Assembly (NCBI RefSeq): GCF_014204755.1
Contig: NZ_JACHLZ010000001.1
Location: 62,001-126,000, forward strand
Length of the DNA stretch: 64,000 nucleotides
Direction of reading: 5' to 3'
DNA from: Brachybacterium aquaticum
Lineage (GTDB): Bacteria; Actinomycetota; Actinomycetes; Actinomycetales; Dermabacteraceae
Both the position numbers and the translations under genes were made by a program. Shown here piece after piece: positions 311 through 29,667 of the stretch. Numbering within the stretch: the first letter of the stretch is position 1; every line of letters starts with the position of its first letter. The notes under the pieces are model-generated. The model worked only from the letters and a program-made list of their open reading frames with translations. It was not told the origin of the DNA and ran no database searches.

Positions 311-608
311 CCGGGCCTCCCGTCGGTGTCGACTCCACATCGTCAACGTCTGTCAATGTTATGTCGCGCAGCGGTGACACGCCAGAGGGGCGGCCGGCAT
401 GGGAGCAGAGCAGTTGCTTCCAGCTCCAAGGCCTTCCACGCCGCTCACAGTGGCATGGCCCCCGCAAGCTCCCCACGGGACATGCCGATGTCCACGCGAG
501 CGGCGCGCACGAGGCCGGCGGCGTCCGTGCCGCGGTTCAGCATGCCGCGATCATTCCACCGCCCGCGTATCCGGACACCCCCGCCCCAGCCCTGGCAGAC
601 TGTCCGTT
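311..608. other. intergenic region between divergent genes
   Basis: Holds the 5' regions of the minus-strand HTH gene and of rfbA. A TTGACA hexamer lies on the minus strand at 351-356, followed by a second TTGAC repeat. It resembles a -35 element for the HTH gene, but no convincing -10 is seen. No Shine-Dalgarno sequence precedes rfbA. No coding signal of its own was found; the plus-strand open frames across it have the composition of shadows. Confidence 0.4.
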
Positions 609-3936
<3,328 letters not shown>

Positions 3937-3939
<3 letters not shown>

Positions 3940-3960
3940 GCCGGGTGCTGCCCCGGCTCA
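3937..3960 (+). terminator. rho-independent-type hairpin after rfbCD
   Basis: Nine-base perfect arms, 3937-3945 and 3952-3960 (TGAGCCGGG / CCCGGCTCA), around a 6-base loop. They begin at the rfbCD stop codon and are followed by a modest T-containing stretch (TGAGTTCTTG). It separates the rhamnose operon from the glycosyltransferase-exporter operon. Confidence 0.65.
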
Positions 3961-4152
3961 TGAGTTCTTGAACAGTTCTCGTAGGTCGCGAACACCTCGA
4001 GACCGAGGACGGCGAGGACGCACTGGAAGGCCATACGGCTATTGCAGGCGGGGTGGCGCCCACCAGGTCGCATGCAGGGGGCAGGGGACGGACGGCATGC
4101 CCTCGGTATGCTCTCGAAGTCCCATGTCGTCGTGCCCCCCGAACGGAGGATC

Positions 4153-7895: not shown

Positions 7896-7980
7896 ATCGA
7901 GGTTGAACGGAATGAGAAAACATGGAGTGATGAACACTTGCTGCACACACTCGGTGACCGTGCAGACACTGTGATTGCCG

Positions 7981-7986
7981 GATAAT
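7981..7986 (+). promoter_or_regulatory. candidate -10 element upstream of wecB
   Basis: GATAAT at 7981-7986, 35 bases before the wecB start, in an AT-richer stretch than its surroundings. No good -35 lies at 16-18 bases; TGACCG at 7955-7960 is the nearest but is 20 bases away. It suggests that wecB has its own promoter in addition to any read-through from the exporter operon. Confidence 0.35.
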
Positions 7987-8021
7987 GGTTCCTGACTAAT
8001 TCGTCTCCCAAGGAGTTCTCG

Positions 8022-12358: not shown

Positions 12359-13354
12359 CTACTCCGAGAGGGTCGAGACGATGTCGAGCGGACGGTCAGA
12401 CGCCCAGGGAGCGCCGGACGCTTGTTCCCCGGGGCGGAGCGTCAGGTGGGCCTTGTCGCGCAGTTCCGCATCGAAGTGCCACGTCGCGTCGTCGTCCTCG
12501 AGGAGGATGACGAGCACGGAGTTCTTGCGGGCGGCGAGGAGGAGGTCGCGCAGCGCGCGATACCTCCGCGCGTGCGAGGCGTGCAGTGTTCCGTGCCAGA
12601 TCCCGCTGTGCAGGGCGCGTGACTCGATGACGAGGAACGAGGTGCCGGGGTCGAGCTCCAGCAGATCCGGTCGGAGCGCCCGCACGGAGTAGCTGTTCTG
12701 GAGCCTGGCGAGGGTCCCGGGGAGGGCGATCGTCTGGACCAGAGGACGGGTCTCCGCATCCGAGGAGGTCTGCTCGAGCAGTGCGCAGAGTCTGCGGCGG
12801 CGGTGGGGATCCGGGGCCACGGAGGCGGCGATCCTCCCGGCTGTGAGGCCGGTGTCGTCGTGCTTCAGCGGCACCGAGGCGCGGTTCTGAGAGGGAGCTC
12901 GGCGGGGCCGGACGGAGGAGGAGCGCCCCGCCGCGTCGTCGACCGGGCGAAGGCTCTGCTCGTCCAGTACGGTTTCGAGGCGTGTCACCGTCTCGTGGAC
13001 ACGGTGGAGGTCCTTGCGGATGTTGCCCACGGTAGCCTTGGTGTGAGGGCCGGAGCCCACGAAGTACAGGACCCGCGAGAGCTCCTTGCGCTGACCCCGG
13101 TCCGCCGCGGCGACGTCCTCACGGATCGCGGCGAGCTGGCGATTCGTGAGCGCCCGGCGGGCCTCGCTGCGCCGGTCCGTCTGCCAGAGCGCGATCGCGA
13201 GGAGCGCGAGGGCGGCACCTGCTGCGGCGATCAGGACCCCGTCTCCGATACCGGCGATGACGAGGGCGAGGGTGCCGGCGGCGATGAGGGCAGGCACCAG
13301 TGCGAGGACGGCCTGCGAGGCCGAGGTCGGGCGGAGGGCCCGCAGGCGCTTCAC
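12359..13354 (-). CDS. unrecognised membrane/coiled-coil protein of the polymer locus
   Basis: 331 aa from GTG 13354, which overlaps the wecC stop (GTGA); the apparent longer frame upstream is only a shadow of wecC. Two adjacent hydrophobic segments, residues about 14-34 (AVLALVPALIAAGTLALVIAG) and 38-58, form a membrane hairpin. Then comes a charged, probably coiled region (about 60-140, RRSEARRALTNRQLAAIRED and HRVHETVTRLETVL). A soluble C-terminal domain of about 150 residues ends the chain, with alternating hydrophobic strands such as TSFLVIESRAL and SVLVILLEDDD. I do not recognise the family. Its tight coupling between wecC and a glycosyltransferase suggests a membrane-associated scaffold or chain-length factor; that is inference only. 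Confidence 0.75.
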   Translation of the reverse strand: MKRLRALRPTSASQAVLALVPALIAAGTLALVIAGIGDGVLIAAAGAALALLAIALWQTDRRSEARRALTNRQLAAIREDVAAADRGQRKELSRVLYFVGSGPHTKATVGNIRKDLHRVHETVTRLETVLDEQSLRPVDDAAGRSSSVRPRRAPSQNRASVPLKHDDTGLTAGRIAASVAPDPHRRRRLCALLEQTSSDAETRPLVQTIALPGTLARLQNSYSVRALRPDLLELDPGTSFLVIESRALHSGIWHGTLHASHARRYRALRDLLLAARKNSVLVILLEDDDATWHFDAELRDKAHLTLRPGEQASGAPWASDRPLDIVSTLSE

Positions 13355-14604
13355 CGCCAGAGTCCCTTGGTGTCGATCACGACCTTCTCCTGGAGCTTGT
13401 CCCGGTCGAGGGCGCGGAAGGGGTCGTGATCGACGAGCAGGAGCACGATGTCCGCGCGCTCGACGGCGTCGTCGAGCTCGGCGAGCTCCACGTTGTCGTG
13501 TCTGTCGAACTCCGGGGGGAGCGCGTCGATATTGGGCTCGACGACCAGGACCGTCCCCTCGCCGAGGCGCTCGGTGAGCGCGACGGCGATGTTTTTGCTC
13601 GGCGACTGCCGGAGGTCGTCGATGTTCGCCTTGAAGGCGAGTCCGAGAGCCGCGACCGTCGGGTTCTTCAGCCGATCGGCACGGGCGAGCACCTTGGCCA
13701 GCACCGCTTCGGGCTTCGAGTCGTTGACGGCGCGCGCCGTGGCGATCAGCCGTGAGTTCTCGCGGTCCGCGGAGACGATGAACCAGGGGTCGACCGCGAT
13801 GCAGTGCCCGCCGACGCCCGGGCCGGGCTGGAGGATGTTCACCCGCGGATGATGGTTGGCGAGCTCGATCAGCTCCCATACATCGATCCCTTGCTTCTGG
13901 GTGATGAGGGAGAGCTCGTTGGCGAAGGCGATGTTCACGTCGCGGAACGCGTTCTCGGTGAGCTTGGCCATCTCCGCGGTCCGTGAATCGGTGAGGAGCA
14001 GCTCGCCTCGGCAGAAGCTCGCGTAGAGATCGCGGTTCAGCTCAGCGGCCTGTGGGGTGAGCCCGCCGATGATGCGGTCGTTCTCGACCATCTCGATCAT
14101 AATGCGTCCGGGCAGAACCCGCTCAGGCGCGTGGGAGAAGTAGAGCGAGGTGGGCAGGCCAGGGTCTCGAGTGAGGTCAGGTCGCGCCTCGAGGATCACG
14201 TCCGCCATGTGCTCGGTGGTGCCGGGAGGAGCGGTGGACTCGAGGACGACGAGCTCGCCACCGGACAGCGTCGGGGCGATGCCGCGCGCAGCTGCCTCGA
14301 TGTACGACAGGTCCGCTTCGTGGTCAGCGAGGAACGGGGTGGGCACGGACACGATGTAGGCGTCCGCCTCGGGGGTCTGGGCCTGCGCGGTGAGCTTCCC
14401 CTGCGCGACGGTGCCGGCGACGACCGTCTCGAGGCCCTCCTCGACGAAGGGCACCGTGCCCGCGTTGACCGCGTCGACGGTCCGCTGGGACACATCCACA
14501 CCGATGACCTTCTTCCCCGCCTGCGCGAGGACTGCCGCCGTAGGCAGGCCGATGTAGCCGAGGCCGATGACGGCGACGGTGTCGAGAGGGTGCTGCGAAC
14601 TCAC
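13351..14604 (-). CDS. wecC: UDP-N-acetyl-D-mannosamine dehydrogenase
   Basis: 417 aa. GTG 14604 is preferred because AGGAG lies 8 bases upstream; an in-frame ATG at 14628 would put that site inside the gene. NAD-dependent four-electron oxidation of UDP-ManNAc to UDP-ManNAcA. Motifs: VIGLGYIGLPTA near residue 12, STAPPGTTEHM, FSHAPERVLPG near 160, KLTENAFRDVNIAFANEL near 210, and GPGVGGHCIAVDPWF near 260 with the catalytic cysteine. The HAPERVLPG form with the HCIAVDPWF ending is typical of WecC rather than glucose dehydrogenases, and wecB is nearby. First gene of a four-gene minus-strand operon. Confidence 0.92.
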   Translation of the reverse strand: MSSQHPLDTVAVIGLGYIGLPTAAVLAQAGKKVIGVDVSQRTVDAVNAGTVPFVEEGLETVVAGTVAQGKLTAQAQTPEADAYIVSVPTPFLADHEADLSYIEAAARGIAPTLSGGELVVLESTAPPGTTEHMADVILEARPDLTRDPGLPTSLYFSHAPERVLPGRIMIEMVENDRIIGGLTPQAAELNRDLYASFCRGELLLTDSRTAEMAKLTENAFRDVNIAFANELSLITQKQGIDVWELIELANHHPRVNILQPGPGVGGHCIAVDPWFIVSADRENSRLIATARAVNDSKPEAVLAKVLARADRLKNPTVAALGLAFKANIDDLRQSPSKNIAVALTERLGEGTVLVVEPNIDALPPEFDRHDNVELAELDDAVERADIVLLLVDHDPFRALDRDKLQEKVVIDTKGLWR

Positions 14605-15063
14605 TGAAGTGGCTCCTGGAGAGGGCATGAACGCCGGGACGGATCGATGGGGGAGGCGTCGCGAGTATGCTACGTTCCGTCGATTCGCAAGGCCTCGGTG
14701 GAGATGCCCATCTCTCGCTCGTGGGACGCGGGCGTGATGAGTACTCACAGTTCACCTGGACGTCACCGTGATGATTACTGCACGTCATCGGATGCGGTCC
14801 TCGCACCGTCCTCTCTTCTCAGCGCGACCTGCGGGGGAAGAAACCGTCGGACTGCCTGTTCACCTGCTCGTGGCCTGCGCGGGAGCGAGTGTTCTTCCGC
14901 GACGCGCGCTCGCTCTGGAGAAGTACCTGTTGGGATGGTCGGGGTTTCCCGAGAATTCACCGACTGGTTAGAGTTCGGCCATGGTGCCTTCTCTCCTCGT
15001 CCTGGTTCCCGGCCGGCTGGATCTCCGAACCGCGATGCGTGCGATGGATCGGGGGGACGCGGC
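14605..15063. other. 459-bp intergenic region between divergent wecC and gpsA
   Basis: No convincing gene. It should hold both promoters. On the minus strand, TAGCAT (forward 14667-14672) with TTGCGA (forward 14685-14690) is a weak -10/-35 candidate for wecC, but the 12-base gap is too short; shifting the -10 to CATACT gives 15. The plus-strand frame at 14768-14971 lacks a ribosome site and is not believed. A GGGGGA ribosome site precedes gpsA. Confidence 0.4.
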
Positions 15064-16065
15064 ATGACGCGCATCGCGATGCTCGGAGCAGGAAGCTGGG
15101 GCAGTACCTTCTCCCTCGTCCTCGGTGACGCCGGCTGCGATGTCGTGGTGTGGGCGCGTCGTGAGGAGGCAGCCCGTGCGATCCGGGAGGAGCATCGCAA
15201 CGCCGAGTACCTGGGGGATGTGGAGCTTCCCGCATCGGTGACCGCCACCGCGAACGTCGCCGAGGCTCTCGAGGCGGTCGACGGCGTGGTGCTCGCGCTG
15301 CCCACCCAGCGGCTGAGGGACAACCTCGTGGGGTGGAAGGACGACGGCATCGCCCTTCCCAAGGTCCCGGTCCTCTCTCTCGCCAAGGGGATCGAGCGGG
15401 GGACCGATCAGCGCATGAGCCAGGTGATCGCTGAGGCGGTCGACGTGGACCCGGCACTCATCGCGGTGCTCTCGGGGCCCAATCTCGCTGGCGAGATCGC
15501 GGCACGGCAGCCCAGCGGGAGCGTGATCGCTGCGGCGGACGAAGCTCTCGCCCATGAGGTCGCCGCGTGGTGCGCCGCGCCCGGGTTCCGGTCGTATGTG
15601 TCCCAGGATGTCGTTGGCGTCGAGATCGCCGGGGCGATGAAGAACGTCATCGCGATAGCCGTCGGGGCTGCGGTGGGCCTTGGATACGGGACAAACACCT
15701 GCTCCACCCTTATCACTCGCGGCCTCGCCGAGATCACCCGGCTCGGCGTCGTCCTCGGTGGCCACCCCGCAACGTTCGCGGGTCTGGCGGGCATGGGAGA
15801 TCTCGTCGCTACCTGCACGTCGCCGCTCTCGCGCAATCACCGCCTCGGCCACGCACTCGGCCGGGGGCTGGACGTCGAGGCCGCACTCCTCGAGGTGGGG
15901 CAGACCGCCGAGGGCGTCGCCACGGCACGAGCCGTGGACGAGCTGGCGCAGCGACTCGACATCGACATGCCCATCACGAAGACCCTCGTGGGCGTGGTCG
16001 ACCACGGCGTGACCATCGAGGAAGCCACCTCGTATCTCCTCGCACGCTCCGTCAGGCCGGAGTGA
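15064..16065 (+). CDS. gpsA: NAD(P)-dependent glycerol-3-phosphate dehydrogenase
   Basis: 333 aa, full length; ATG 15064 follows GGGGGA. Reduces dihydroxyacetone phosphate to sn-glycerol-3-phosphate. Motifs: GAGSWGSTFSLVLGDAG at residues 7-23 (nucleotide binding), SLAKGIERGT near 108, VLSGPNLAGEIA near 138, GAMKNVIAIAVGAAVGLGYG near 186 with the catalytic lysine, and AGMGDLVATCTSPLSRN near 244. It heads the plus-strand operon with two TagF-type polymerases and tagD, so this copy probably supplies glycerol phosphate for CDP-glycerol as well as phospholipid synthesis. Confidence 0.95.
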   Translation: MTRIAMLGAGSWGSTFSLVLGDAGCDVVVWARREEAARAIREEHRNAEYLGDVELPASVTATANVAEALEAVDGVVLALPTQRLRDNLVGWKDDGIALPKVPVLSLAKGIERGTDQRMSQVIAEAVDVDPALIAVLSGPNLAGEIAARQPSGSVIAAADEALAHEVAAWCAAPGFRSYVSQDVVGVEIAGAMKNVIAIAVGAAVGLGYGTNTCSTLITRGLAEITRLGVVLGGHPATFAGLAGMGDLVATCTSPLSRNHRLGHALGRGLDVEAALLEVGQTAEGVATARAVDELAQRLDIDMPITKTLVGVVDHGVTIEEATSYLLARSVRPE

Positions 16066-16074
16066 GGCGCGGAG

Positions 16075-19000
16075 GTGGCTCGCGAGACAGCGACGCGGCG
16101 TATCCTCGGAGGGGTCGCTGCGGCATGGAGACGAACACGACGACCTGAGGTCAGCGTGGTGATCCCGTGCAAGGACGCCGAGCCGTACCTGGAAGCCGCG
16201 ATCCGCAGCGCACTGAACCAATCCGTGCGGGACATCGAGGTGATCGTCGTCGATGACGGGTCGACGGACGGCTCCCGAGACGTCGCCTCGGGCCTCGCCG
16301 CGCGCGACCGTCGCGTAGTCGTCCTGGACGGGGAGCAACGAGGTCCGGGGTCTGCACGTAACCGCGGTGTCGAGAGAGCTCGCGGGACCTTCCTCGCGTT
16401 CGTCGACGCGGACGATGTCATGCTCCCCGGCGCCCTCGAGTCAATGCTTGCCGCAGCTCGCCGGAGTGGTTCCGATGTAGTGAAGGGCTCGTACCGACGG
16501 CACAGCGCGATGGGGTCCCACCGGCCCAAGCTCACGGCGCGAGTGCACGCCGAGGAGCGGCTGGGCACGACGCCCGAGGAGTTCCCGGATCTGCTCGACG
16601 AGCCGGTCCTCTGGAACGGGCTGTATCGGACCACATTCTGGAAGAGCAGAGTGCATCCGATCCCGGAGGACGTGAACTACGAGGACCAGGAGCCGAGCCT
16701 CGCCGCTGCGCTGCAGGCGCGGAGCGTCGACGTGCTGCCCACGGACGTTTACTCGTGGCGACTGCCGGAGGAACGGGCCACCCGGTCCCAGTCGAAGTCG
16801 AGTCTTGAGGACCTCGCGGACCGGCGAACCGTTCTCCACCGAATGCGCGTGATGCTGGACGAGCACGGCGCCTCCCATGCAGTTCGCCAGCACTTGCTGG
16901 CGGTCTGGCTCGGACGTGACCTCCTCATGTACGCGGAGAAGGTCCCTGGCGCGGTCCCGACGTTCAGGGAGGAGCTCCGCCTGATCGGTGCTGAGCTCAC
17001 CGCGCTGGTGGATGTGGGGACCTGGAACACCTTAGGGTTCTGGGAACGGATGACAGCTTGGGCGCTGAGCCACCCCGATCCGGAAGTGCTCGATGACGTG
17101 CTCGCCACGCGGTGGGAGGAGACGAGCGCGCTTCCTCTCTTCCTCGACCAGGACACAGGCGAACTGCGTGCCGCGCACCCCCTTCTCGAACGGTGGCCAG
17201 AGGTCCCCCAGCACGTGCGGGCTCTCTCGCCACTCGACATACGGCTTGTCTGCACCGCCCGGAAGATGCGGTTCGCCGACGCTCACCATGTCGAGATGAA
17301 AGCCGAAGTGCACCTCGCGGGTCTCGACCCTCGACGCTCGCCGTTGGATGTCGAGATCGCTGCGGTGAGCGTGGACGGCACCGCGGAAGTGCACGGAACG
17401 GTGGAGCGGGTGAAGGCACCGTGGGCGGACCTTGTTGCGAACGACCCATGGCGTTCCTACACCTCGGCAGGTATTCGAGCGCGAGTCCCGTTGGCGGATG
17501 CGGAGGCGCAGCAGTTCTGGGTGCGCACCACGGTGGGAGGCAGGGCGCTCGAGGCGGTGGTACCGCTGCCGGTGACCTCGCTGAGCTACCGGCTGGGGCC
17601 CGTCGAGGGGAGCCGGCAGTCTGCCCTCATGGCTGCCGACGATGGTGCCGCGCTGGTTACGGCCATCAACGTCTCACCGTTCGTCATCCAGCGAGTGCGC
17701 ACTGGCCCCGAGCACGTCGAGCTCCACGTCCTCTGCACGGATCTCCCGGTCCTCGATGGCGAGGTTCGAGCCGTTGCACGCCGTCAGGGGACGGAGATCG
17801 AAGGGCGGATCTCGCGCGACTGGACGCAGTTGGAGATCCGGTTCGATCTGCCTGGGATGAAGGAGGGGCCAACCTATCGAGGGGAGAGGGGCTTCGAGGT
17901 CCAGATCCTCGTGGGCGGACGTTCCTTCCCCGTCTCCTGGGATCGGAAGGTTAAGGCAGCGAGGGCCCGGGCGGTGCGTGCCATCCCCGACAGGGCAGGC
18001 GATCTCCAGATCGAGCAGCGTTTCGCACGCGTGACCATCGACGGTGTCAACGTCGAGGGGCCCGTCGCTCGACTGTCGGGCCGCGTTGATCCTCCCGGGC
18101 TCGTACCGCAGATCTGGCTCGTCTCCTCCCGTGCGCGCGCACGCTTGGAGCCAGTGCAACGGCGGAAGGGGCGATGGAGCGCAGACGTGGATCTCTCGGA
18201 TCCCTCGCTCGCCTCCGATGGCTACTTCGTCCGATGGTCCCTCACCCCGGAAGAGCAACCCGAGGGGTGGGCTCGTGCCGGACGTGACCTGCGGAAGGGT
18301 GAGCACTACGTCGAGGGCACGTGCCGCAGTGTGCGGCTCTCGCCGAAGCAGGGCGGCCCGCTCGGAATCACTCTGGGCCCCCCACTTTCACGGACCGAGC
18401 GCACGCGGGCGGGCAGAACACGGCTGATCGCGATGGACTTCGGCCCGTTGACGCCCGGTATCTTCTTCGAGTCCTTCAACGGGAAGTCCTCGGGTGGGAA
18501 CCCCCGGGCGCTCTTCGACGCGCTTCTCCAGGAGACCGAGGGGCCGCTGTGGTGGTCCGTAGCGGACGGGACAGTCCCTGTGCCACCCGGTGCGACTCCT
18601 GTGGTCGCAGGATCTGAGCCCTGGTTCCGGGCCCTCCGCACTGCACGTGTCCTGGTCACGAACAACAACTTCCCTCACTGGTTCACCAAGGTGCCAGGGC
18701 AGATGATCGTGCAGACGTGGCACGGTACCCCGATCAAGAAGTTGATCCACGACGCCCCATCCAACTTCACTCCCCTGGTGTATCGCCGCTTGATCGAGCG
18801 CCAGGCGGCGCAATGGGATCTGCTGCTGGCCCAGGACGAGGAGGCGGAGCGTCGCCTCCGATCTGCGCTCAGGTACGACGGACCCGTGCGTCTCGGAGAC
18901 CAGCCTCAGAACGTCCGCCTGGAGCAGGGGGCGAAGGGCCGCGAACGAGTGCGCGATGAGCTCGGCATCCCGACAGGAGCTCGTGCGGTCCTGTATGCGC

Positions 19001-19539
19001 CGACCTGGCGAGAGAAGATGCGACGCGCTTCGGGCGAGGACTCGCTGAAGGCACTCATGGATCCCGCAGGTCTAGCGGCTGAGACAGGCGCGTGGGTGCT
19101 CGTGCGGAGCCACCACATGAACGGGCTCCGTGCGGAGGGGGCGCGGGTGATCGATGTGGGCAGCTACCCGCATGTCGAAGATCTGATGCTGGCCAGCGAT
19201 GTGCTCGTCTCCGACTACTCGAGCATCTTCTACGACTACCGACTCACGGGACAGCCGATGATCGTGCACGCTCCCGACCTCGAGTGGTACCGCGACGTCG
19301 AGCGGGGCTTCTACGGACGATGGCCCGTTGACCTGAGCCTTCCGATGTCCAGGACCCAAGAGGAGCTCACGGTCCTCGTCAACGGCGCGCTGACGGTTGC
19401 ACACCACCGACCAGACCCGGTCAGCACTGCGAGGGAGAACATCTCCTGGCTTCGAGGCGAGGTCCTGAAAGCGATCCACGGCACAGACGGGTCACATCAT
19501 CCCGCACAGCAGGATGACAACTGCCCACTGAATCCCTGA
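16075..19539 (+). CDS. giant GT2 glycosyltransferase + TagF-type polyglycerophosphate transferase
   Basis: 1154 aa from GTG 16075, 9 bases after gpsA. A GGAGG touches the start codon, so the exact start is uncertain, but no other start precedes the GT2 domain. Residues about 24-250 form a family 2 glycosyltransferase: SVVIPCKDAEPYLEAAIRSA, VVDDGSTDGS, GPGSARNRGV and FVDADD. A middle region (about 390-760) of repeated beta-strand-like segments has no recognised family. Residues about 840-1130 match CDP-glycerol glycerophosphotransferase: VQTWHGTPIKKL, VLYAPTWREKM and VSDYSSIFYDYRLTGQPM. It therefore probably couples sugar addition with poly(glycerol-phosphate) addition on the cytoplasmic membrane face. 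tagD follows 54 bases later. Confidence 0.88.
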   Translation: MARETATRRILGGVAAAWRRTRRPEVSVVIPCKDAEPYLEAAIRSALNQSVRDIEVIVVDDGSTDGSRDVASGLAARDRRVVVLDGEQRGPGSARNRGVERARGTFLAFVDADDVMLPGALESMLAAARRSGSDVVKGSYRRHSAMGSHRPKLTARVHAEERLGTTPEEFPDLLDEPVLWNGLYRTTFWKSRVHPIPEDVNYEDQEPSLAAALQARSVDVLPTDVYSWRLPEERATRSQSKSSLEDLADRRTVLHRMRVMLDEHGASHAVRQHLLAVWLGRDLLMYAEKVPGAVPTFREELRLIGAELTALVDVGTWNTLGFWERMTAWALSHPDPEVLDDVLATRWEETSALPLFLDQDTGELRAAHPLLERWPEVPQHVRALSPLDIRLVCTARKMRFADAHHVEMKAEVHLAGLDPRRSPLDVEIAAVSVDGTAEVHGTVERVKAPWADLVANDPWRSYTSAGIRARVPLADAEAQQFWVRTTVGGRALEAVVPLPVTSLSYRLGPVEGSRQSALMAADDGAALVTAINVSPFVIQRVRTGPEHVELHVLCTDLPVLDGEVRAVARRQGTEIEGRISRDWTQLEIRFDLPGMKEGPTYRGERGFEVQILVGGRSFPVSWDRKVKAARARAVRAIPDRAGDLQIEQRFARVTIDGVNVEGPVARLSGRVDPPGLVPQIWLVSSRARARLEPVQRRKGRWSADVDLSDPSLASDGYFVRWSLTPEEQPEGWARAGRDLRKGEHYVEGTCRSVRLSPKQGGPLGITLGPPLSRTERTRAGRTRLIAMDFGPLTPGIFFESFNGKSSGGNPRALFDALLQETEGPLWWSVADGTVPVPPGATPVVAGSEPWFRALRTARVLVTNNNFPHWFTKVPGQMIVQTWHGTPIKKLIHDAPSNFTPLVYRRLIERQAAQWDLLLAQDEEAERRLRSALRYDGPVRLGDQPQNVRLEQGAKGRERVRDELGIPTGARAVLYAPTWREKMRRASGEDSLKALMDPAGLAAETGAWVLVRSHHMNGLRAEGARVIDVGSYPHVEDLMLASDVLVSDYSSIFYDYRLTGQPMIVHAPDLEWYRDVERGFYGRWPVDLSLPMSRTQEELTVLVNGALTVAHHRPDPVSTARENISWLRGEVLKAIHGTDGSHHPAQQDDNCPLNP

Positions 19540-19593
19540 ATATTGGATGAACACACGGCAACGGGGGTCCTTGACGCCCAGGAAAGGCAAGTC

Positions 19594-19986
19594 ATGCAGC
19601 GCGTGATCACCTACGGCACCTACGACCTGCTCCACTACGGGCACATCGAGCTCCTCCGACGTGCACGGTCCCTCGGTGACTACCTCGTGGTGGCGCTGTC
19701 CACGGACGAGTTCAACGCGGGCAAGGGCAAGAAGTGCTACTACTCGTGGGAGGAGCGCCGGCGCATGCTCGAGTCGATCCGCTTCGTGGACCTCGTGATC
19801 CCCGAGACCACCTGGGAGCAGAAGGTCGACGACGTGGCACGCTACAACATCGACACCTTCGTCATCGGCGACGACTGGGAGGGCAAGTTCGACTTCCTCC
19901 GCGACCAATGCGAGGTCGTCTACCTGCCGCGCACGCCTGACATTTCTACCACCCGCATCAAGACAGATCTTCACCAGAGGGCCTGA
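19594..19986 (+). CDS. tagD: glycerol-3-phosphate cytidylyltransferase
   Basis: 130 aa from ATG 19594, preceded by GGAAAGG; an upstream in-frame ATG (19543) lacks a site and would exceed the usual length of about 130. Makes CDP-glycerol from CTP and sn-glycerol-3-phosphate. Motifs: YGTYDLLHYGHIELLRRA (HxGH signature) at the N-terminus, LVVALSTDEFNAGKGKK, and the C-terminal RTPDISTTRIK. Gene order gpsA - TagF fusion - tagD - TagF fusion gives a complete CDP-glycerol supply and polymerisation set. Confidence 0.95.
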   Translation: MQRVITYGTYDLLHYGHIELLRRARSLGDYLVVALSTDEFNAGKGKKCYYSWEERRRMLESIRFVDLVIPETTWEQKVDDVARYNIDTFVIGDDWEGKFDFLRDQCEVVYLPRTPDISTTRIKTDLHQRA

Positions 19987-20000
19987 GGGAACGTAAAACG

Positions 20001-23000
20001 ATGATGTTCAATAATCTTAATCCCGCTCTCCGCAAGCCGATGCAGAGGTTGTGGCGGGCGACAATTCCCGAGTCGACGAGGCGCGAGCTATTCGCCCGCC
20101 GAAGGGCAAAGAATGAGTCACTCCTGTCAATTATTGTGCCGGTATACAAGGTCGAAGATTACCTAGATGAATGCATAAGTTCACTGGTTGAACAAACATA
20201 TTCAAACCTCGAAATCATCCTTGTGGATGATGGTTCGCCAGATAATTGCGGCGCGATGTGTGACGCTTGGAAGCGGGAAGACGGTCGCATAAAAGTCCTA
20301 CATCAGGTCAATGGCGGGCTCTCCAATGCGCGGAATAATGGCGCAAGGCTTGCGACCGGAAAGTACCTCGCCTTTGTAGACTCAGACGACATCGTCCCCA
20401 AAGACGCATTCAAGCTCTTGGTCGAGTCCCTGGAAACAACCGGATCAGATGTTTCCACCGGAAACGTACAGCGCTTCCAGAGAGGACGCCAGTGGCAGGC
20501 CTGGAATCAGACCTACAGCCATCGGCGAGATAATTTTGGCGCGCTGGAGGAGGATCATAAGGTCGCAAGGGCGGTCACCCTTGAGAGCCATCCGGAATTG
20601 CTGTTCGACACCACTGCTTGGAATAAAGTATTCCGCAGGGATTTCTTCCGTCGATCAAAGATAACCTTTCCCGAGGGCAAGCTTTACGAAGACATGCTTC
20701 CTATGGCGCAGGCATTCTCGGCGGCCCGATCGATCGACGTCGTGCTCGACACTACGTATCTTTATCGCGAACGCGAAGACAAGACTTCTATAACCCAAAA
20801 GCGCGGCGAGGTTAACAATCTCGGCGACAAGATGGAGATGGTCGACAGGATTCTAGATCTACGCCTCGGCCTCGGCGCGCCCGCCAAAGAAGTGCAGACG
20901 ATTGTATTCAAGGCCCTAGAGGGAGATCTGCCAGTATACTCTCCTTACCTAGGGAGGGCGAAAGACTTTGACGCGATCTACATGCGCAGCCTAAGAAAGT
21001 ACTGGGGACTGGCGACGCGAGAGACGAAGGACCGGCTCGCCCTCGACAGAAGAGTGCTGTATCTTACCCAGCTTTTTGGTGACCCTAGCGAGGCAGAGAC
21101 CAACGCGGGAGAAGTCCGAAACCGATTCCACGAGATTCCGATTATCGCAGGCGATGCGGGCCTCGTTGCCGACATTGATTGGGATCCCAGGTTGCTGGGA
21201 GTCCTCGCACCGGGAGGCGATGCGTCGATGGAACGCTACGTCTATCTCCGGCAATGCATCACTGACGCAAGGGTCGGCGGGGGGAGGATGCAAATAACCG
21301 GGTTCGCGTTCCTCGAGTACGTGCCAGATCCTCAAGAAGCGACAATCGAAGTTTCTTTGCGTAATGCTGAAGGAACGAATGTTTCGCTGGAGCCGCAATC
21401 GTTCCCATCCCCTGAAGCCAATGGCTACTGGGGATCCGGGAATGCGGATCGCACAGATTGTGGGTTCCGGATCGACCAGTCCCTAGATTCCATATTCGGT
21501 GATGTCCACCTAGAATCCACTCAACGTTGGGATGTGTGGGTGCGAGTGCAATATCGCGGGCGCTCCTGGGAATCTGTCGCCTTCGCTTACTGGCGTGGTG
21601 GGACCATTCGGGCCGGAGTCAGTGCCCACGTCGGAACAGCGCATCACGGAATGTTTTCATGGCAGCCGTGGGGTAAACCGCTTGCTTTCATAACGCATCC
21701 CCCTCGCGTGGAAGTGCTCGTGGTCAGAGTAGATGATAACCTCATCGACATCGAGCTTTCGCCCACGAAAGAAAGAATTACGGGCGCCGCTATGATGCGC
21801 TCGTGGGATTCGGGCGAGATCAGTGGTAAATTGCTCGGAACGGGCAAGAATGGCGGACTCCTCGTTCAATTTGATACCCACGACATGGCGGATCGAGGCG
21901 AAGCAGGCGGTAATCTAAACGCGTGGCGCCCTTCGGTAACTCTGGATGACGGCAGCACCTTGTACCCCTCTTGCGCCACCGACTCAAGCAGCCTGCTAAC
22001 TGACTCGGCCGGGTGGGAGGTGCGCAACAATTCTGCCCAAGAGTTGCTACTTATTGACAAGTGCTGCCTATTTGAAGTAACCGAAGCACATTTCGAAGAA
22101 AATAGACTCATCCTGTCGGGGGTCAACTTCGGCGGCGACGCAATGGACCACAAGGGAGAATTCTGGGGCGCCGATGGCAATAATATCCGCCATTGCGAAT
22201 TCGTAAACCTGGAGGGCAACCGGTTTGAGTTTCGTGTGAACCTAGAAGTGGAGGACCGGTTCGGCAACGCGGCAGCATGGAAGCCCGGCGAGTATAGAAT
22301 TCGCCTGTGGCATGCAGACGGAACTCACTGCAAGCAGCGAGTACGCTCCTCCACTGCCCTCCTCCAGTCCGCCCTGCCGCTTGAATGGACCGGGTCTCTT
22401 TGTCACGCGCGCCTGCACGTCCTCTCAGATACACTGGAGTTCTCACTAGGGATCAAGGCCCCACTCACCATTCATGAGCGTGGGCGATACAACCATGACC
22501 GTATGCGTGATGCTTGGCGCGGGTTGGGAGACGATGATGTCACCCCGCGTGAAGCGGTCGTGTTCTCTGTAAATATGGGTGGGCCCGCGGGAGATTCGGG
22601 ACTTGCGATTTTGCAGGAGATGCGGAAACGCGATCTCCCACTCGAGTATTTTTGGGCCGTTACGGACACCTCGATTGATGTGCCGCTGGGCGTACGTAAG
22701 TTGGTCAGAGGTTCATCTGAATGGTTTGAACTGCTATCTACGGCACGCGTTGTTGTGAACAACTACGGTGGCATTGATTCCTACGGTGATCGCGCTTTCC
22801 AGTACTATCTGCAGACCTGGCACGGAACTCCCTTAAAGTTCATTGGGCGCTCGGAGATAGAGCAAGAGGCCCGCTGGGCTGCCGGCAAGGCTGCACGGGC
22901 TCGTAGAGAGGCGGGGGAGTGGGACGCGCTGATCTCGCCCAACAAGTTCTTCACGTCTATAGCGAGCCGAGAATTCTATTACGAAGGGAAGGTCCTGGAG

Positions 23001-23657
23001 ATCGGGTACCCTCGTAACGACCGGCTTGTGAACTCAACCCCCGAGGAGAGGGCCGAGCTTCGAGCGAGCATCGGGATACCTGAGGAATGCCGCGCGGTGC
23101 TGTACGCACCAACTTGGCGTGATGTTGGGGCGAGCGGTTATGCGAGTCCTATGGTTGAGTTCTTTGATCCAGAGGACCTCGCTGAACAGATAGGTGGGAA
23201 GACCACGTTCCTCGTCCGGGGACACTCATTCAACCTTCGCGCTGGGGCCGGGCGGAGAGAGGACAGGTCGCGTGTCATCGACGTGACATCGTATCCAGAT
23301 GTAAATGAACTCATGATTGCTTCGGATGTCTTGGTCACAGACTATTCGTCCATCATGTTCGACTATCTGTGCACCGGCAAGCCTATTGTTTACTTTGCTC
23401 CCGATCTGGACGAATATCTTGCGAATCGTGGCATGTACATGGAGCTTCAAGATGTTCTTGCTGGTCCGCTTGTGCAGAACGTGCCCGATCTGGTTTCAGA
23501 ACTCGTCCACCTTGACACTTTCGAGGAAAGATTCGGTCCGCAGTATGAGGCGTTGGCGGAAGCCTTTATCTCGTGGGACGACGGCAGGGCAAGCTCACGC
23601 GCAGTCGACGCCATCCTGAATGCGATCTCGGACCCAAATAGGACCAAGCAACAATAG
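20001..23657 (+). CDS. second giant GT2 + TagF-type fusion (lower-GC gene)
   Basis: 1218 aa. ATG 20001 lies 14 bases after tagD. Same architecture as 16075-19539: GT2 at residues about 40-260 (LSIIVPVYKVEDYLDECISS, LVDDGSPDN, GGLSNARNNG, FVDSDD), a long beta-rich middle (about 400-830), and a TagF-type C-terminus at about 870-1200 (LQTWHGTPLKFIG, VLYAPTWRDVG, VTDYSSIMFDYLCTGKP). Codon use is markedly different from the neighbours, with many A/T third positions (ATT, AAT, ATA, CTA). This points to acquisition from a lower-GC donor and not simple duplication of the first fusion. Probably adds a different sugar/glycerol-phosphate repeat. Confidence 0.87.
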   Translation: MMFNNLNPALRKPMQRLWRATIPESTRRELFARRRAKNESLLSIIVPVYKVEDYLDECISSLVEQTYSNLEIILVDDGSPDNCGAMCDAWKREDGRIKVLHQVNGGLSNARNNGARLATGKYLAFVDSDDIVPKDAFKLLVESLETTGSDVSTGNVQRFQRGRQWQAWNQTYSHRRDNFGALEEDHKVARAVTLESHPELLFDTTAWNKVFRRDFFRRSKITFPEGKLYEDMLPMAQAFSAARSIDVVLDTTYLYREREDKTSITQKRGEVNNLGDKMEMVDRILDLRLGLGAPAKEVQTIVFKALEGDLPVYSPYLGRAKDFDAIYMRSLRKYWGLATRETKDRLALDRRVLYLTQLFGDPSEAETNAGEVRNRFHEIPIIAGDAGLVADIDWDPRLLGVLAPGGDASMERYVYLRQCITDARVGGGRMQITGFAFLEYVPDPQEATIEVSLRNAEGTNVSLEPQSFPSPEANGYWGSGNADRTDCGFRIDQSLDSIFGDVHLESTQRWDVWVRVQYRGRSWESVAFAYWRGGTIRAGVSAHVGTAHHGMFSWQPWGKPLAFITHPPRVEVLVVRVDDNLIDIELSPTKERITGAAMMRSWDSGEISGKLLGTGKNGGLLVQFDTHDMADRGEAGGNLNAWRPSVTLDDGSTLYPSCATDSSSLLTDSAGWEVRNNSAQELLLIDKCCLFEVTEAHFEENRLILSGVNFGGDAMDHKGEFWGADGNNIRHCEFVNLEGNRFEFRVNLEVEDRFGNAAAWKPGEYRIRLWHADGTHCKQRVRSSTALLQSALPLEWTGSLCHARLHVLSDTLEFSLGIKAPLTIHERGRYNHDRMRDAWRGLGDDDVTPREAVVFSVNMGGPAGDSGLAILQEMRKRDLPLEYFWAVTDTSIDVPLGVRKLVRGSSEWFELLSTARVVVNNYGGIDSYGDRAFQYYLQTWHGTPLKFIGRSEIEQEARWAAGKAARARREAGEWDALISPNKFFTSIASREFYYEGKVLEIGYPRNDRLVNSTPEERAELRASIGIPEECRAVLYAPTWRDVGASGYASPMVEFFDPEDLAEQIGGKTTFLVRGHSFNLRAGAGRREDRSRVIDVTSYPDVNELMIASDVLVTDYSSIMFDYLCTGKPIVYFAPDLDEYLANRGMYMELQDVLAGPLVQNVPDLVSELVHLDTFEERFGPQYEALAEAFISWDDGRASSRAVDAILNAISDPNRTKQQ

Positions 23658-25292: not shown

Positions 25293-26682
25293 CGCGGAGC
25301 GTTTGTAGTCTTTCTGTTGGGCCGTAAACCTATCCGGGACCGTTCATGAATCGGACGGGATCGATGAAGGCCTTGACTCGGCCCAGGTTCTCTGCCGCTA
25401 CTTTGCGGGTTCGGGCTCTCGGGCGAGGGCCTCGTAGTGGAGCGTCTCGGACTCTACCGGGGTCAGCAGCCCCAGGGGGCCGTGGAGGCGTCGGTTGTTG
25501 TACCAGTCGACCCAGCCGGCAGTGGCGAACTCGACGTCTGAGAGCGTCCGGAACGGGCCGTGGTGGAAGACGGTGGTGCGGGTGCACTCGGTCTTGAACA
25601 GCCCATTGACCGTCTCCATGAGCGCGTTATCGAACGCATCGCCGACGGTCCCGATCGAGGGAGCGATGCCCTCGAGGTCGAGGTGCTCGGTGTACCGGAT
25701 CGACGTGTACTACTTGGGTTCAATCGGTCGATGCAACACCGGGTTGGTGGAGTGAGCGTAGTTGTTCTTCGAATACCTCGGCAGGGGTCTTCCACTCGAG
25801 GACCTTGCGGGGTCGGTTGTTGAGCGCGTGCGCGATGGCCTCGAGGTCCTCAGCGGACCATCGTGAGAGGTCCGTGCCCTTGGGGAAGTACTGGCGCAGC
25901 AAGCCGTTGGTGTTCTCGTTCGTCGGCCGCTGCCATGGCGAGTGGGGGTCGGCGAAGAACATCTTCGTGCCAGTCTCCACGGAGAACTGTGCGTGACCAG
26001 AGAGCTCCTTGCCTCGATCCCAGGTCAGGGTCTTCCGCAGCTGCTCGGGCAGCGTGGTCATCGACGCACTGAGCGCCGCGTTCATCGCGAGAGCGCCGTA
26101 GCCGCCGAGCGATGGACCGTTCTTCACGTAGGGCTGCTCGCCCCAGCCCTCCATGCGGGGCAAGTGGACCAGGATCGTTGAGCGGCTGCTGCGCTCAACG
26201 ATCGTCCCGATCGCCGACCGGCCAGTGCCGATGATCAGGTCGCCCTCCCAGTGACCGGGCACGGCGCGGTCTGCGGCTTCCGCGGGGCGTTCGCTGAGGA
26301 CCACATCGGCCGTGACATGCCCACCGGGCTTGTTCCGCGACCGGGCCCTGGGCCTCCGTAGCGCGCGACCGGTGCGCAGGCACGTGACCAGTTCCCGCTT
26401 GAGAGCGCCGCGACCCTCGATGAACAGCGACTGGTAGATCGCCTCGTGGCTGATGCGCATGGACTCATCATCGGGAAAGTCGATCTTCAAGCGCTGTGCG
26501 ATCTGCTCCGGGCTCCAGGCCAGCGCCCACCGCCGGTCGGCACGGTGCGGCTTGTTCAGCCCTTTCCACGGGGCCGGGGTGGGGCCAGTGACGATCGTGC
26601 CGTCGGGTCGGCGAACGTTGCCGGCGAGCCGGTCGTGGACGTACTGGCGCAGCTGCGTGTTCTCAAGCAGCTTCGCGGCCTT

Positions 26683-26709
26683 GGTCAAGTCCCTGGAAGT
26701 GGTGTAGCG
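26683..26709 (+). repeat. IS256 terminal inverted repeat, left
   Basis: Inner 12 bases AGTGGTGTAGCG (26698-26709) match the right end perfectly; the outer part shares AGTCCC. Preceded by the target duplication GCGGCCTT at 26675-26682. Confidence 0.85.
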
Positions 26710-26725
26710 ATCCTTCGTTTGGGGG

Positions 26726-27976
26726 TCAGGCGGTCAGGGCGGGCAGAGAGCTTGTGGTGACCTCCTCGGTGCTGGTTTCGGGGACGACGGTGAGGCGGCA
26801 GCGGGCGAGGACGTCGAGGCCGAGGTAGCGGCGCCCCTCGGCCCACTCGTCGGTCTGTTCGGCCAGGACCGCGCCGACGAGGCGGACGATCGCCTCGCGG
26901 GTCGGGAAGATGCCGACGGAATCGGTGCGGCGACGGATCTCCTTGTTCAAACGCTCGGTGGGATTGTTCGACCAGATCTGGACCCACACGTCCTTGGGAA
27001 ACCCCGTGAACGCGAGCAGATCTGCGCGGGCGGCATCGAGGTGCTCGGCCACGTCCGGGAGCTTCTCGCTGACGTAGCCCAGCAGCCGCTCGAACTGCGC
27101 GTTCACCGCTTGTGCGTCGGGCTGGTCATAGACGCTGTGCAGCATCGCTTTCACCGCCGGCCACATGCTCTTGGGCGTCACGGCCATGAGGTTCGCGGCG
27201 TAGTGGGTGCGGCACCGTTGCCAGGCCGCGCCGGGCAGGTGCGCAGCGATCGCCTCGACGAGTCCCGCGTGCGCATCACTGGTGACCAGGCGGACCCCGG
27301 CGAGGCCGCGAGCGACGAGGTCAGCGAAGAAGCCGTTCCACGCCGCTCCGGTCTCGGAGGTGGCAACACGCATGCCGAGGACTTCGCGGTGCCCGTCGCC
27401 GTTCACGCCGGTCGCGAGCAGGACGACGGCGTTGATCACGCGCCCACCCTCGCGGACTTTCATCGTCAGCGCGTCAGCGGAGACGAACGTGAACGGCCCG
27501 GCCTCGTCCAAGGGCCGGTGGCGGAACTGCTCGACATGCTCGTCCAACCACTCCGCCATCCTGCTGACCTGCGACTTCGAAAGACTGTGGATGCCCAGGG
27601 TCTTCACGAGCTTATCCATCCGGCGCGTGGAGACACCGGCGAGATAGCAGTCCGCGACGACCGTGATCAGGGCGGATTCGGCGCGCTTGCGCCGCTCGAG
27701 CAGCCACTCGGGGAAGTAGGTGCCAGAGCGGAGCTTGGGGACCGCGACGTCGATCGTGCCGACGCGGGTGTCGAGGTCGCGGTGGCGGTAGCCGTTGCGC
27801 TGCGCGACCCGGCCGCTGCTGGGGCGGCCGTACTCCGCGCCGGCGACAGCGTCTGCGTCCGCGGAGAGCAGGGTATTGATCACGTCCTGGAGCAGGCTGC
27901 GCATCAGATCCGGGGACGCTTCAGCCAGGGCTTCACCGAGCAGGCCGGAAGGGTCGACAATGTGAGGAGCGGTCAT
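26726..27976 (-). CDS. IS256-family transposase, intact
   Basis: 416 aa, normal for the family (about 400-420). Cut-and-paste DDE transposase with the all-alpha insertion. Recognisable segments in order: LLQDVINTLLSADADAVAGAEYG at the N-terminus, RNGYRHRDLDTRVGTID, SKSQVSRMAEWLDEHV, FVSADALTMKVREGG (first catalytic Asp), VTSDAHAGLVEAIAAHLPGA (second Asp), RCRTHYAANLM, and WSNNPTERLNKEIRRRTDSVG containing the catalytic glutamate (TERLNKEIRRR). It fills most of the 1413-bp element. It may be active, since gene, ends and target duplication are all intact. Confidence 0.93.
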   Translation of the reverse strand: MTAPHIVDPSGLLGEALAEASPDLMRSLLQDVINTLLSADADAVAGAEYGRPSSGRVAQRNGYRHRDLDTRVGTIDVAVPKLRSGTYFPEWLLERRKRAESALITVVADCYLAGVSTRRMDKLVKTLGIHSLSKSQVSRMAEWLDEHVEQFRHRPLDEAGPFTFVSADALTMKVREGGRVINAVVLLATGVNGDGHREVLGMRVATSETGAAWNGFFADLVARGLAGVRLVTSDAHAGLVEAIAAHLPGAAWQRCRTHYAANLMAVTPKSMWPAVKAMLHSVYDQPDAQAVNAQFERLLGYVSEKLPDVAEHLDAARADLLAFTGFPKDVWVQIWSNNPTERLNKEIRRRTDSVGIFPTREAIVRLVGAVLAEQTDEWAEGRRYLGLDVLARCRLTVVPETSTEEVTTSSLPALTA

Positions 27977-28068
27977 CGTGATGACTCCGTTCGAGAGTGC
28001 TGTGGAAGGTTCACTCGAAGGATCACACGGTGGCCGCGCCCACGTCCGAGACGATCACGGGGCCACCG

Positions 28069-28095
28069 CGCTACACCACTATGCGGGACTCAACT
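28069..28095 (-). repeat. IS256 terminal inverted repeat, right
   Basis: Reverse complement matches the left end, with the same AGTCCC and AGTGGTGTAGCG blocks. Followed by the duplicated target GCGGCCTT at 28096-28103. Confidence 0.85.
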
Positions 28096-29293
28096 GCGGC
28101 CTTGGGCCGCTTGGCCGACTGTTGCGCCTTCCACTGGGCAACCGTGGCCCGGTATTCCAGCTTCCCGGCACGAGTCGCAGCGTTGCGGCGCAGCTCGCGG
28201 GAGACGGTTCCGGGGTCACGCCCGATCTCGCGGGCAATCTCTCGAACGCCCTTGGCCTGGGCGTGCAGGATGGCGATCTCCTCGCGTTCTTCGAAGCTCA
28301 GGTATCGGCCGATGGGCTCAGCCAGCGAGATAGGCGACATCCCGCCAGCGTGGCGATACCAGCGGGACCCGACTGGCACGGACACGCCGACCGCGAGCGC
28401 CGCTTCTGCCGACGTGATGCCCGTGGCGATCAGGCGCCAGAACTGCCGTTGCACCGCCCGGGACGGGGCAGGGCGTCCGGGCGAGCGCATCGGCGGTCTC
28501 AGCGCCCGGTCAGCACGCACTGACGACGAAGCTCCACCGGCGCGTCGCTCGTCTTCTTGCTCCAGTCTCCCGTGGCCATGCTCGAACACCTCCGAAGTCG
28601 AGGTGTTGCGACGACCAGTTGAATCCGCCCTGAGATCCGGCATCGCTGTGATGGATCAAATCACCTGGTGAGACCTGGTTTCCGTCGCGTTCCCGCTGCC
28701 ACAGCGCGATCCGCAGTGGCGTCATGACGAGATCGGTGCGCATGCTCGAGGACGCGTGCCAGCCCACGATCCGCTGAGCGAACACGTCAACGACGCACGC
28801 GACGTACACGAGCCCGGCCCAGGTGCGAACGTAGGTGAAATCGGTGACCCAGACCAGGTTCGGAGCCGGGCCGTGAAGTCGCGATTGAGCAGGTCACCCG
28901 CCCGTTTCCCATTAGGGTTCGGGATGGTGGTGCGCAGCTTCTTCGCCCGCCGAATACCTTCGAAGCCGAGGGTGCGCATCGCCCGGTCCACCGCCCCACG
29001 GGAGGTGCCGGCCAGGCCTTCCTGACGGCGGAGCAGCGCGACCCACTTCCGCCGCCCGTAGAGCCCTTCAGGGGTCATCTGCCACCGCTGGGTGGTGGCG
29101 TTGAACGTCCAGGCCAGCTCACGGATCTTGTCCTCGACCAGAGCGTCTGTGACCGTCCGAGCGGCGACGCGGGCCGGGTGCTTCCAGGACCGGTAAGTGC
29201 CTGCAGCGATGCTCAGGCCCTGCTGACGCAGGACGCGGAGGACCGGCTCGACTGCATAGCCCTCGGCTCGCATCTCGTCGATGAACGCGCAGA

Positions 29294-29605
29294 TCAGCGG
29301 TTTCGGGGGTCGAGCTCTCCCGCGAAGAAAATTGAAGCCCGGCGGAGGATTTCATTGTCCTCCCGCAGCCTCTTGTTCTCCGCTTTCAGGCGTTTGACCT
29401 CGGCAGACTCCTCGCTGGTGACGCCCGGGCGGGCCCCGTCGTCAACCTCGGCCTGGGCCAGCCAGCGCCGCACGGTCTCCCGCGAGACACCCTCCTGACG
29501 CGCGACCGCGGCAGTGGCCGCCGTGAGAGTGGGGTATTCCTGCTGGTGCTCGCGCACGAGCCGCACGCACCTCGCGCGCAGCTGGGGATCGATCTTCTTC
29601 GGCAT
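29294..29605 (-). CDS. IS3-family OrfA (helix-turn-helix subunit)
   Basis: 103 aa from ATG 29605; a nearby ATG at 29614 would add three residues. Begins MPKKIDPQLRARCVRLVREH, has the helix-turn-helix VARQEGVSRETVRRWLAQAE near residue 40, and a C-terminal leucine-zipper coiled coil (VKRLKAENKRLREDNEILRR) used in this family for multimerisation. Normally fused to OrfB by -1 ribosomal frameshifting near the overlap. Here OrfB is broken, so only the regulatory OrfA can be made. Confidence 0.85.
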   Translation of the reverse strand: MPKKIDPQLRARCVRLVREHQQEYPTLTAATAAVARQEGVSRETVRRWLAQAEVDDGARPGVTSEESAEVKRLKAENKRLREDNEILRRASIFFAGELDPRNR

Positions 29606-29667
29606 GCTGTCCATCCTCTCGGACTCAAACAGCAGCGGCATCAAACCTGGGATGCTTCTATGTTGTG

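Follow-up and report, generated by a model that had tools for sequence, protein, structure and literature searches.

GT2-TagF fusion enzymes with Ig-like middle regions beside tagD in Brachybacterium aquaticum: candidates for starting and polymerising a type II wall teichoic acid

Do two similar fusion enzymes encoded on either side of tagD perform the same job in building a wall polymer? The question is raised by a locus of Brachybacterium aquaticum (NCBI RefSeq assembly GCF_014204755.1), found in the 64,000 nucleotides analysed here (the window; NZ_JACHLZ010000001.1, positions 62,001-126,000, forward strand). Two of its open reading frames (ORFs), P0001 and P0002, encode a GT2 glycosyltransferase head, a long middle region and a TagF tail (Table 1). 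The original prediction, made from the sequence alone, took both for polymerases that alternate sugar and glycerol-phosphate addition. The biosynthesis of type II wall teichoic acid (WTA) is described as little known by the authors of work on TagF-like capsule polymerases, who regard the role of TagF-like homologues as worth asking about (PMC5974469, cited from excerpts throughout).

The reading that we favour, with about an even chance of being right, is that both proteins are fusions of a TarS/RmlT-like and a TarL/TagF-like enzyme, that P0002 polymerises, and that P0001 starts or links the chain before the polymerase encoded in the slot after tagD acts. Domains, fold matches, motifs, clade membership and gene order were computed; the substrates, the holding of the acceptor and the split between starter and polymerase are what we infer from them.

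Two fusion enzymes and the clade of P0001

Pfam recovered the GT2 head and the TagF tail in both ORFs, as had been predicted. The TagF family PF04464 scored 194.2 bits in P0001 and 290.8 bits in P0002, against a curated cut-off of 22.1. Both halves of both proteins keep their catalytic residues. In the tails these are two histidines, which align by phmmer with H444 and H584 of Staphylococcus epidermidis TagF. These histidines, and the DxD of the GT-A domain, are given as catalytic in the excerpts of PMC5974469. Among the tail motifs listed in the original prediction, WHGTP and LYAPTWR occur in both proteins; SDYSSI is exact only in P0001 and reads TDYSSI in P0002. The P0002 tail contains GYPRND, TDYSS and DDGRA. 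P0001 has DQPQNV in place of GYPRND, which we take to be one of five TagF active-site motifs, and its C-terminal DDGxA stretch is absent.

BLASTP gave 36% identity between the two TagF parts and 29% between the two GT2 parts, and no match of note between the two middles. By these values P0001 and P0002 are divergent paralogues flanking tagD, in line with the prediction. A recent duplication within this genome was considered and rejected, because they fall in separate supported tree groups.

The relatives of P0001 were placed in a tree of 184 TagF domains and in a more careful tree of 46 of them, from which the motif and C-terminal columns were left out. P0001 belongs to a nine-member group, here called clade A, with support of 1.0 in the larger tree; the same nine were recovered at 100/100 in the smaller one. 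P0002 pairs at 100/100 with L149:4826-8689 in the 46-domain tree; in the 184-domain tree most of its next kin are Propionibacteriales records, at a moderate support of 0.858. At order level (297 genomes, E<=1e-60, own genome counted in), P0001 was matched in 17 genomes and P0002 in 24. Ten of the 16 matches of P0001 in other genomes were placed and six were not; seven of the ten belong to clade A and three lie outside it. A class-level search matched three of 394 genomes at E<=1e-80, own included; the two other genomes, G506 and G568, have PGP intact and are not counted in clade A.

Motif losses were counted on alignment columns, for the nine clade-A domains against the 175 others. Every one of the nine has lost or altered the G and the D of GYPRND, the G of (A/P)GP and the C-terminal DDGxA. 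Among the other 175 domains, the G of GYPRND and the G of PGP are present in 175 each, the D of GYPRND in 172 and the G of DDG in 173. The phmmer equivalents of GYPRND are GYPRND in TagF, GYPRID in Cps3D and GVPRTD in TarL. Clade A keeps the H444 equivalent in 9/9 and the H584 equivalent in 8/9 members; outside it the first histidine is absent in 11 domains, the second in five and the D of GYPRND in three. The GT2 active site is broken in three of the nine (the clade-A proteins of loci L149, L154 and L155), where DxDD is altered, with at least the D113 equivalent replaced, and YED is gone. Pfam still matched the GT2 family in the L154 protein (E 4.9e-5), and left those of L149 and L155 unmatched at E<=0.001. 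The L155 protein (L155:9538-12660, genome G184) also lacks the second histidine and DYSS. Its frame of 1040 residues is open throughout, with catalytic residues of the GT2 and TagF halves replaced; judged by sequence, it may be a pseudo-enzyme retained for a different role.

A further TagF ORF lies within 6 kb of eight of the nine clade-A genes, and in five of these eight cases it is a GT2-TagF fusion. Gene order was compared in four genomes, namely that of the window (G000), G002 of the same genus, and G041 and G198, which share another family of the same order. In the genus comparison of 24 genomes, several of them incomplete, tagD scored above the cut-off only in G000 and G002, and P0001 occurs in the same two. 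In G002, P0001 is 75% identical to that of the window; for the preceding gpsA and the following tagD the identities are 86% and 95%. The next gene after tagD there encodes a 1282-residue TPR-TagF-GT4 protein instead of P0002. G041 carries a clade-A gene, a UDP-sugar dehydrogenase gene, tagD and a P0002-like gene, whose product is 51% identical to P0002 in GT2 and in TagF and 29% in the middle. G198 carries a UDP-sugar dehydrogenase gene, a clade-A gene, tagD and a gene for a 1361-residue TPR-TagF-GT4 protein. The clade-A gene and tagD are constant in the four genomes, and the slot after tagD holds a P0002-like gene in G000 and G041 and a TPR-TagF-GT4 gene in G002 and G198.

Clade A thus keeps the chemistry, has lost positions that the polymerases share, stands constantly by tagD and has varying polymerase neighbours, which fits a starter or linker role. 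From its sequence, P0001 probably starts or links a chain rather than builds it. By analogy, its role is most likely comparable to that of CpsA or TagB.

The originally predicted pair of alternating polymerases now appears unlikely. P0001 and P0002 would then act independently, each adding sugar and glycerol-phosphate in turn, and would make two polymers or a block copolymer. Both proteins do keep DxDD and the YED pair in the GT2 head as well as the two TagF histidines, and several TagF ORFs per locus are common. However, the near-invariant TagF positions are gone from every member of clade A, and the enzyme next door is either a normal-type one or a TPR-TagF-GT4 protein. Alternating addition is also unlikely as the general job of clade A because the GT2 site is broken in a third of its members.

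The starter or linker role of P0001 can be carried one step further, tentatively and with rather less confidence. Clade A might be a dedicated starter or linker for actinobacterial type II WTA, whose product is passed to a polymerase in a swappable slot (GT2-Ig-TagF or TPR-TagF-GT4). If this is true, the type of polymer could be switched by exchanging one gene after tagD.

The middle region

Pfam gave nothing at E<=0.01 between the GT2 and TagF matches of P0001 or P0002, and BLASTP of the middles gave none at E<=0.01 among the matches listed. Identity between the two middles is about 16%, and a profile, not BLASTP, was needed to relate them. For the family alignment, 86 long members were reduced to 73 by an 80% identity filter; 68 of these plus P0001 and P0002 gave 70 rows. 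The profile was built from the 68 actinobacteria-dominated middles, leaving P0001 and P0002 out. At full length it scored 80.8 bits in P0001 and 72.3 bits in P0002, where the best of 400 shuffles reached 6.2; over the beta core only, the scores were 41.9 and 59.4 bits. Scores so far above the shuffles argue that both middles are one actinobacterial family despite their low identity. The TarS_linker family PF22181 matched 43 of the 70 rows at E<=1, the best of them at 3e-6, and P0002 had no such match.

AlphaFold2 (AF2) models of the two middles gave a mean predicted local distance difference test score (pLDDT) of 78.3 and 79.1, and a predicted TM-score of 0.76 and 0.61. The middle comprises about 500 residues, of which about 120 are mostly helical and the following 380-410 are beta-rich and form three beta domains. 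The roughly 400 beta-rich residues described originally correspond to the beta part, and the whole middle is longer by the helices.

From the helices onward, the P0002 model aligned with residues 217-571 of Staphylococcus aureus TarS (5u02) at Z 14.0 over 222 residues, with a root-mean-square deviation (rmsd) of 5.4, and with Listeria monocytogenes RmlT at Z 11.6 over 205 residues (rmsd 9.6). Both alignments begin at model residue 1, and the first unrelated Ig protein followed at Z 6.6. Consistently, Foldseek ranked RmlT, TarS, TarL and TarK first for P0002. For P0001, domain 3 aligned with the TarL N-terminal domain (8v33) at Z 13.9 (rmsd 3.0, 119 residues), with TarS C1 (5tz8) at Z 11.2 (rmsd 2.9, 126 residues) and with RmlT at Z 9.8, and the first unrelated rows stood at Z 7.0. 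On these models, the middle is no new fold, and its best matches are Ig-like domains of TarL/TarK, TarS and RmlT. The weak second beta domain may have a fold other than Ig-like. A TarS-then-TarL order is the best fit to the models.

A non-carbohydrate middle was set aside, as the models match teichoic-acid enzymes well above the generic Ig rows in structural comparison. Lectins were likewise rejected as relatives: the profile of the 70 middles found just two lectin chains among solved structures, at E 2.2, which we read as chance.

The domain order joins those of known enzymes. P0001 and P0002 appear to resemble TarS and RmlT in their GT2 core, helices and Ig-like domain, more clearly so for P0002 than for P0001. 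TarS and RmlT end after their Ig-like domains, whereas P0001 and P0002 continue into a TarL/TagF-like half. In S. aureus TarL and TarK an Ig-like N-domain stands directly before the TagF domain, as in P0002 and P0001; unlike P0001 and P0002, TarL showed no GT2 match. The donor of TarL and TarK is CDP-ribitol, whereas tagD beside P0001 and P0002 points to CDP-glycerol. S. epidermidis TagF has a GT2-like head of its own (phmmer, 29.6 and 32.6 bits), but its GT2 and TagF matches are spaced by about 235-250 residues, against about 670-700 in P0001 and P0002. Ig domains of TarS and TarL type standing end to end suggest how decorating and polymerising enzymes fused, or separated, in evolution.

The original prediction also proposed that the middle binds the acceptor or holds the chain. 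The Ig-like fold, with its best solved relatives in teichoic-acid enzymes, is in keeping with this idea. In the excerpts of PMC5156392, the Ig-like domains of TarS are likened to carbohydrate-binding modules, and a TarS construct deprived of its Ig-like trimerisation domains and no longer trimeric had an intrinsic processivity of 133 versus 2400. By analogy, the Ig-like domains of P0001 and P0002 may hold the growing chain.

Proposed roles and alternative readings

In the favoured reading, gpsA and tagD would make sn-glycerol-3-phosphate and then CDP-glycerol. Each fusion would join a TarS/RmlT-like half (GT2, helical linker, Ig-like domain) to a TarL/TagF-like half (Ig-like domain, TagF GT-B fold). 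P0002 most likely polymerises type II WTA from sugar and glycerol-phosphate with both active sites on one chain, and its Ig-like domains would hold the growing chain between the two sites. P0001 would perform the starting or linking step ahead of the polymerase in the exchangeable slot after tagD. The ABC-2 permease and ATPase genes (5951-7895 of the window) and the sugar genes suggest that the polymer is made in the cytoplasm and then exported by an ABC transporter. Rhamnose and ManNAcA are possible polymer sugars, given rmlA, rmlCD, UDP-GlcNAc 2-epimerase and UDP-sugar dehydrogenase genes.

Similar enzymes are described in Gram-negative bacteria. According to the excerpts of PMC5974469, the capsule polymerases CslB, Cps1B, Cps12B and Ccs2 have an N-terminal GT-A head with DxD and a two-histidine TagF-like domain, one chain for two transfers, as in P0001 and P0002. 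By that description, the enzymes studied here differ in their Ig-like middle of about 500 residues; no TPR was found in them, whereas Cps1B has TPR. They also differ in adjoining gpsA and tagD. In Actinobacillus pleuropneumoniae, as excerpts of PMC11666461 describe, the TagF-like CpsA starts by adding one glycerol-phosphate to the anchor, CpsB supplies CDP-glycerol, and the TPR-TagF-GT enzyme CpsD polymerises. G002 and G198 hold the same kind of set. The starter candidate P0001 is, unlike CpsA, itself a GT2-TagF fusion, and the likeness lies in layout and proposed role.

A different division of labour would lie within each protein. The tail would build a type I poly(glycerol-phosphate), and the TarS-like head would add side-group sugars during growth. 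We consider this improbable, although the sequence cannot tell a backbone sugar from a side-group sugar. The linker and Ig domains resemble those of TarS and RmlT, which decorate ribitol-phosphate chains, and the tail with its Ig-like domain resembles TagF and TarL, makers of polyol-phosphate backbones. However, the Gram-negative GT-A/TagF-like enzymes place the sugar in the backbone (PMC5974469, excerpts), GalT1 and chondroitin synthase are closer matches to the GT2 heads than TarS is, and a covalent fusion suits obligate alternation at least equally well. It is quite doubtful that the TagF half of P0001 transfers something else, either hexose-1-phosphate taken from a UDP-sugar, as in enzymes of the Cps1B/CslB type, or another polyol-phosphate. 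The lost GYPRND, PGP and DDGxA positions with both catalytic histidines kept would fit, and TagF-like domains that transfer hexose-phosphate are well established (PMC5974469, excerpts), but P0001 is flanked by gpsA and tagD in G000 and G002, and no other of the 24 genus genomes has a tagD above the cut-off.

Several points weigh against the favoured reading, with P0002 as polymerase and P0001 as starter or linker. For the role of P0001, the slot pattern is drawn from just four genomes, the motif losses of clade A are one inherited event and not nine, and P0001 itself keeps all GT2 catalytic residues and could still alternate. Adjacency alone is weak evidence, since at least two TagF ORFs occur in 51 of the 79 loci collected below. 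For the fusion of TarS/RmlT-like and TarL/TagF-like halves, the GT2 heads of both proteins match GalT1, chondroitin synthase and 3bcv better in sequence than TarS or RmlT. The AF2 models were made from the 70-row alignments at about 16% identity and have a mean pLDDT of 78-79, and where P0002 matches TarS and RmlT over several domains, the rmsd is 5 to 10. For P0001, Foldseek put TarS first (3.7e-7) with a titin Ig domain near-level (6.3e-7), and TarL, TarK and RmlT were absent among the 50 matches listed. Its domain 3 alone matches both the TarL N-domain and TarS C1, and its helices and domain 1 had no specific TarS match in the structural comparison. A shared fold, finally, is no proof of acceptor binding.

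Gene run, neighbourhood and distribution

The intergenic gaps between gpsA, P0001, tagD and P0002 are 9, 54 and 14 bases. With gaps this short, the four genes look like one transcription unit in the sequence. tagD is the sole TIGR01518 match in its own genome. P0001 (GC 66.6%, 78.5% at third codon positions, GC3) reads as native DNA beside the 68.8% GC of the window, and P0002 as the lower-GC copy (GC 55.3%, GC3 61.4%), as had been noted originally; tagD has a GC3 of 90.1%.

Table 1. Features of the gene run and of the two fusion proteins, in window coordinates
Feature	Coordinates	Strand	Evidence and remarks
gpsA, NAD glycerol-3-phosphate dehydrogenase	15064..16065	+	PF07479, PF01210; start at ATG of MTRIAM; first gene of run
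P0001: GT2, helical linker, three beta (Ig-like) domains, TagF; divergent clade A	16075..19539	+	GTG start, 1154 aa
P0001 GT2 head, residues 27-159	16153..16551	+	PF00535 E 6.7e-36; D111/D113/D114, then E203/D204 kept
P0001 helical region, residues 265-385	16867..17229	+	AF2 secondary structure; homology to family profile
P0001 Ig-like domain 1, residues 390-502	17242..17580	+	AF2 strands, model residues 127-235; generic Ig matches only, Z ~6-7
P0001 beta domain 2, residues 536-621, lower confidence	17680..17937	+	AF2 strands, block pLDDT 52-81
P0001 Ig-like domain 3, residues 648-770	18016..18384	+	like TarL/TarK N-domain and TarS C1
P0001 TagF domain, residues 796-1101	18460..19377	+	PF04464 positions 16-327/367, E 4.3e-57; H883, H1013 kept
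tagD, glycerol-3-phosphate cytidylyltransferase (makes CDP-glycerol)	19594..19986	+	TIGR01518, 199.9 bits vs cut-off 165.4
P0002: GT2, helical linker, three beta (Ig-like) domains, TagF; lower GC	20001..23657	+	ATG start, 1218 aa
P0002 GT2 head, residues 43-216	20127..20648	+	PF00535 E 8.4e-40; D127/D129/D130, then E230/D231 kept
P0002 helical region, residues 292-412	20874..21236	+	like TarS/RmlT helical bundle; pLDDT <50 at model residues 77-103 (last third)
P0002 Ig-like domain 1, residues 414-526	21240..21578	+	AF2 strands, model residues 125-235; inside RmlT alignments, plus generic Ig matches
P0002 beta domain 2, residues 570-636, lower confidence	21708..21908	+	AF2, block pLDDT 61-83
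P0002 Ig-like domain 3, residues 686-822	22056..22466	+	TarL/TarK N-domain-like; 8v33 Z 15.1, rmsd 2.5, 130 aligned
P0002 TagF domain, residues 850-1206	22548..23618	+	PF04464 positions 13-366/367, E 1.9e-86; H941, H1075 kept
Polysaccharide pyruvyl transferase, same lower-GC stretch as P0002	23931..25292	+	PF04230 E 6.3e-25; GC 57.5%

The pyruvyl transferase is a possible decorator of the polymer. After the lower-GC stretch, transposase genes of IS256, IS110 and IS30-like type lie at 25720-30750; IS30-like is our own reading of a weak rve match, not a database name. These genes are consistent with acquisition of the stretch that holds P0002 and the pyruvyl transferase gene. On the other side, 399-9188 and 13351-14748 carry rmlA, an rmlC-rmlD fusion frame, a GT4-type glycosyltransferase, UDP-GlcNAc 2-epimerase, UDP-sugar dehydrogenase, and the ABC-2 permease and ATPase. 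The gene run sits inside a larger cluster for an exported wall polymer. No part of the window matched Rfam at the gathering threshold.

A second site of the same genome (L042, C1 at about 238-247 kb) encodes a 702-residue PF04464 protein at L042:7944-10052 and, at L042:15275-16996, one of 573 residues that matches PF04464 in part; neither has a Pfam GT2 head.

The genome scan used an alignment of three proteins, and the best 79 loci were kept; this selection by similarity to the query means that the following counts are not prevalence. ORFs with both a GT2 and a TagF match numbered 147, at 77 of the 79 loci. All 79 loci are titled Actinomycetota except one Pediococcus record. The sizes of the fusion ORFs cluster at about 690-760, 950 and 1150-1300 residues, and in 86 of the 147 the TagF match starts 700-900 residues after the start of the GT2 match. 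By these matches, the GT2-TagF architecture is common in actinobacteria; the fusion itself is ordinary in kind, and the unexpected part is the paired clade A. No account of actinobacterial GT2-Ig-TagF fusions stood out in the open literature searched. Together with its many relatives in actinobacteria, the gene set offers concrete candidates for a part in type II WTA biosynthesis, with defined domains and residues and a proposed split between starter and polymerase.

Among viral contigs searched with P0002, two stretches matched and neither was a relative. At L041:7686-11534 and L154:4808-8893, relatives of the window's genome encode TPR-TagF-GT4 proteins, whose domains stand in the same order as in Cps3D, a capsule polymerase of Gram-negative bacteria. 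The Pediococcus record (P. acidilactici, Bacillota; L124:8004-13001) holds a GT2-TagF frame of 1665 residues on a long tree branch.

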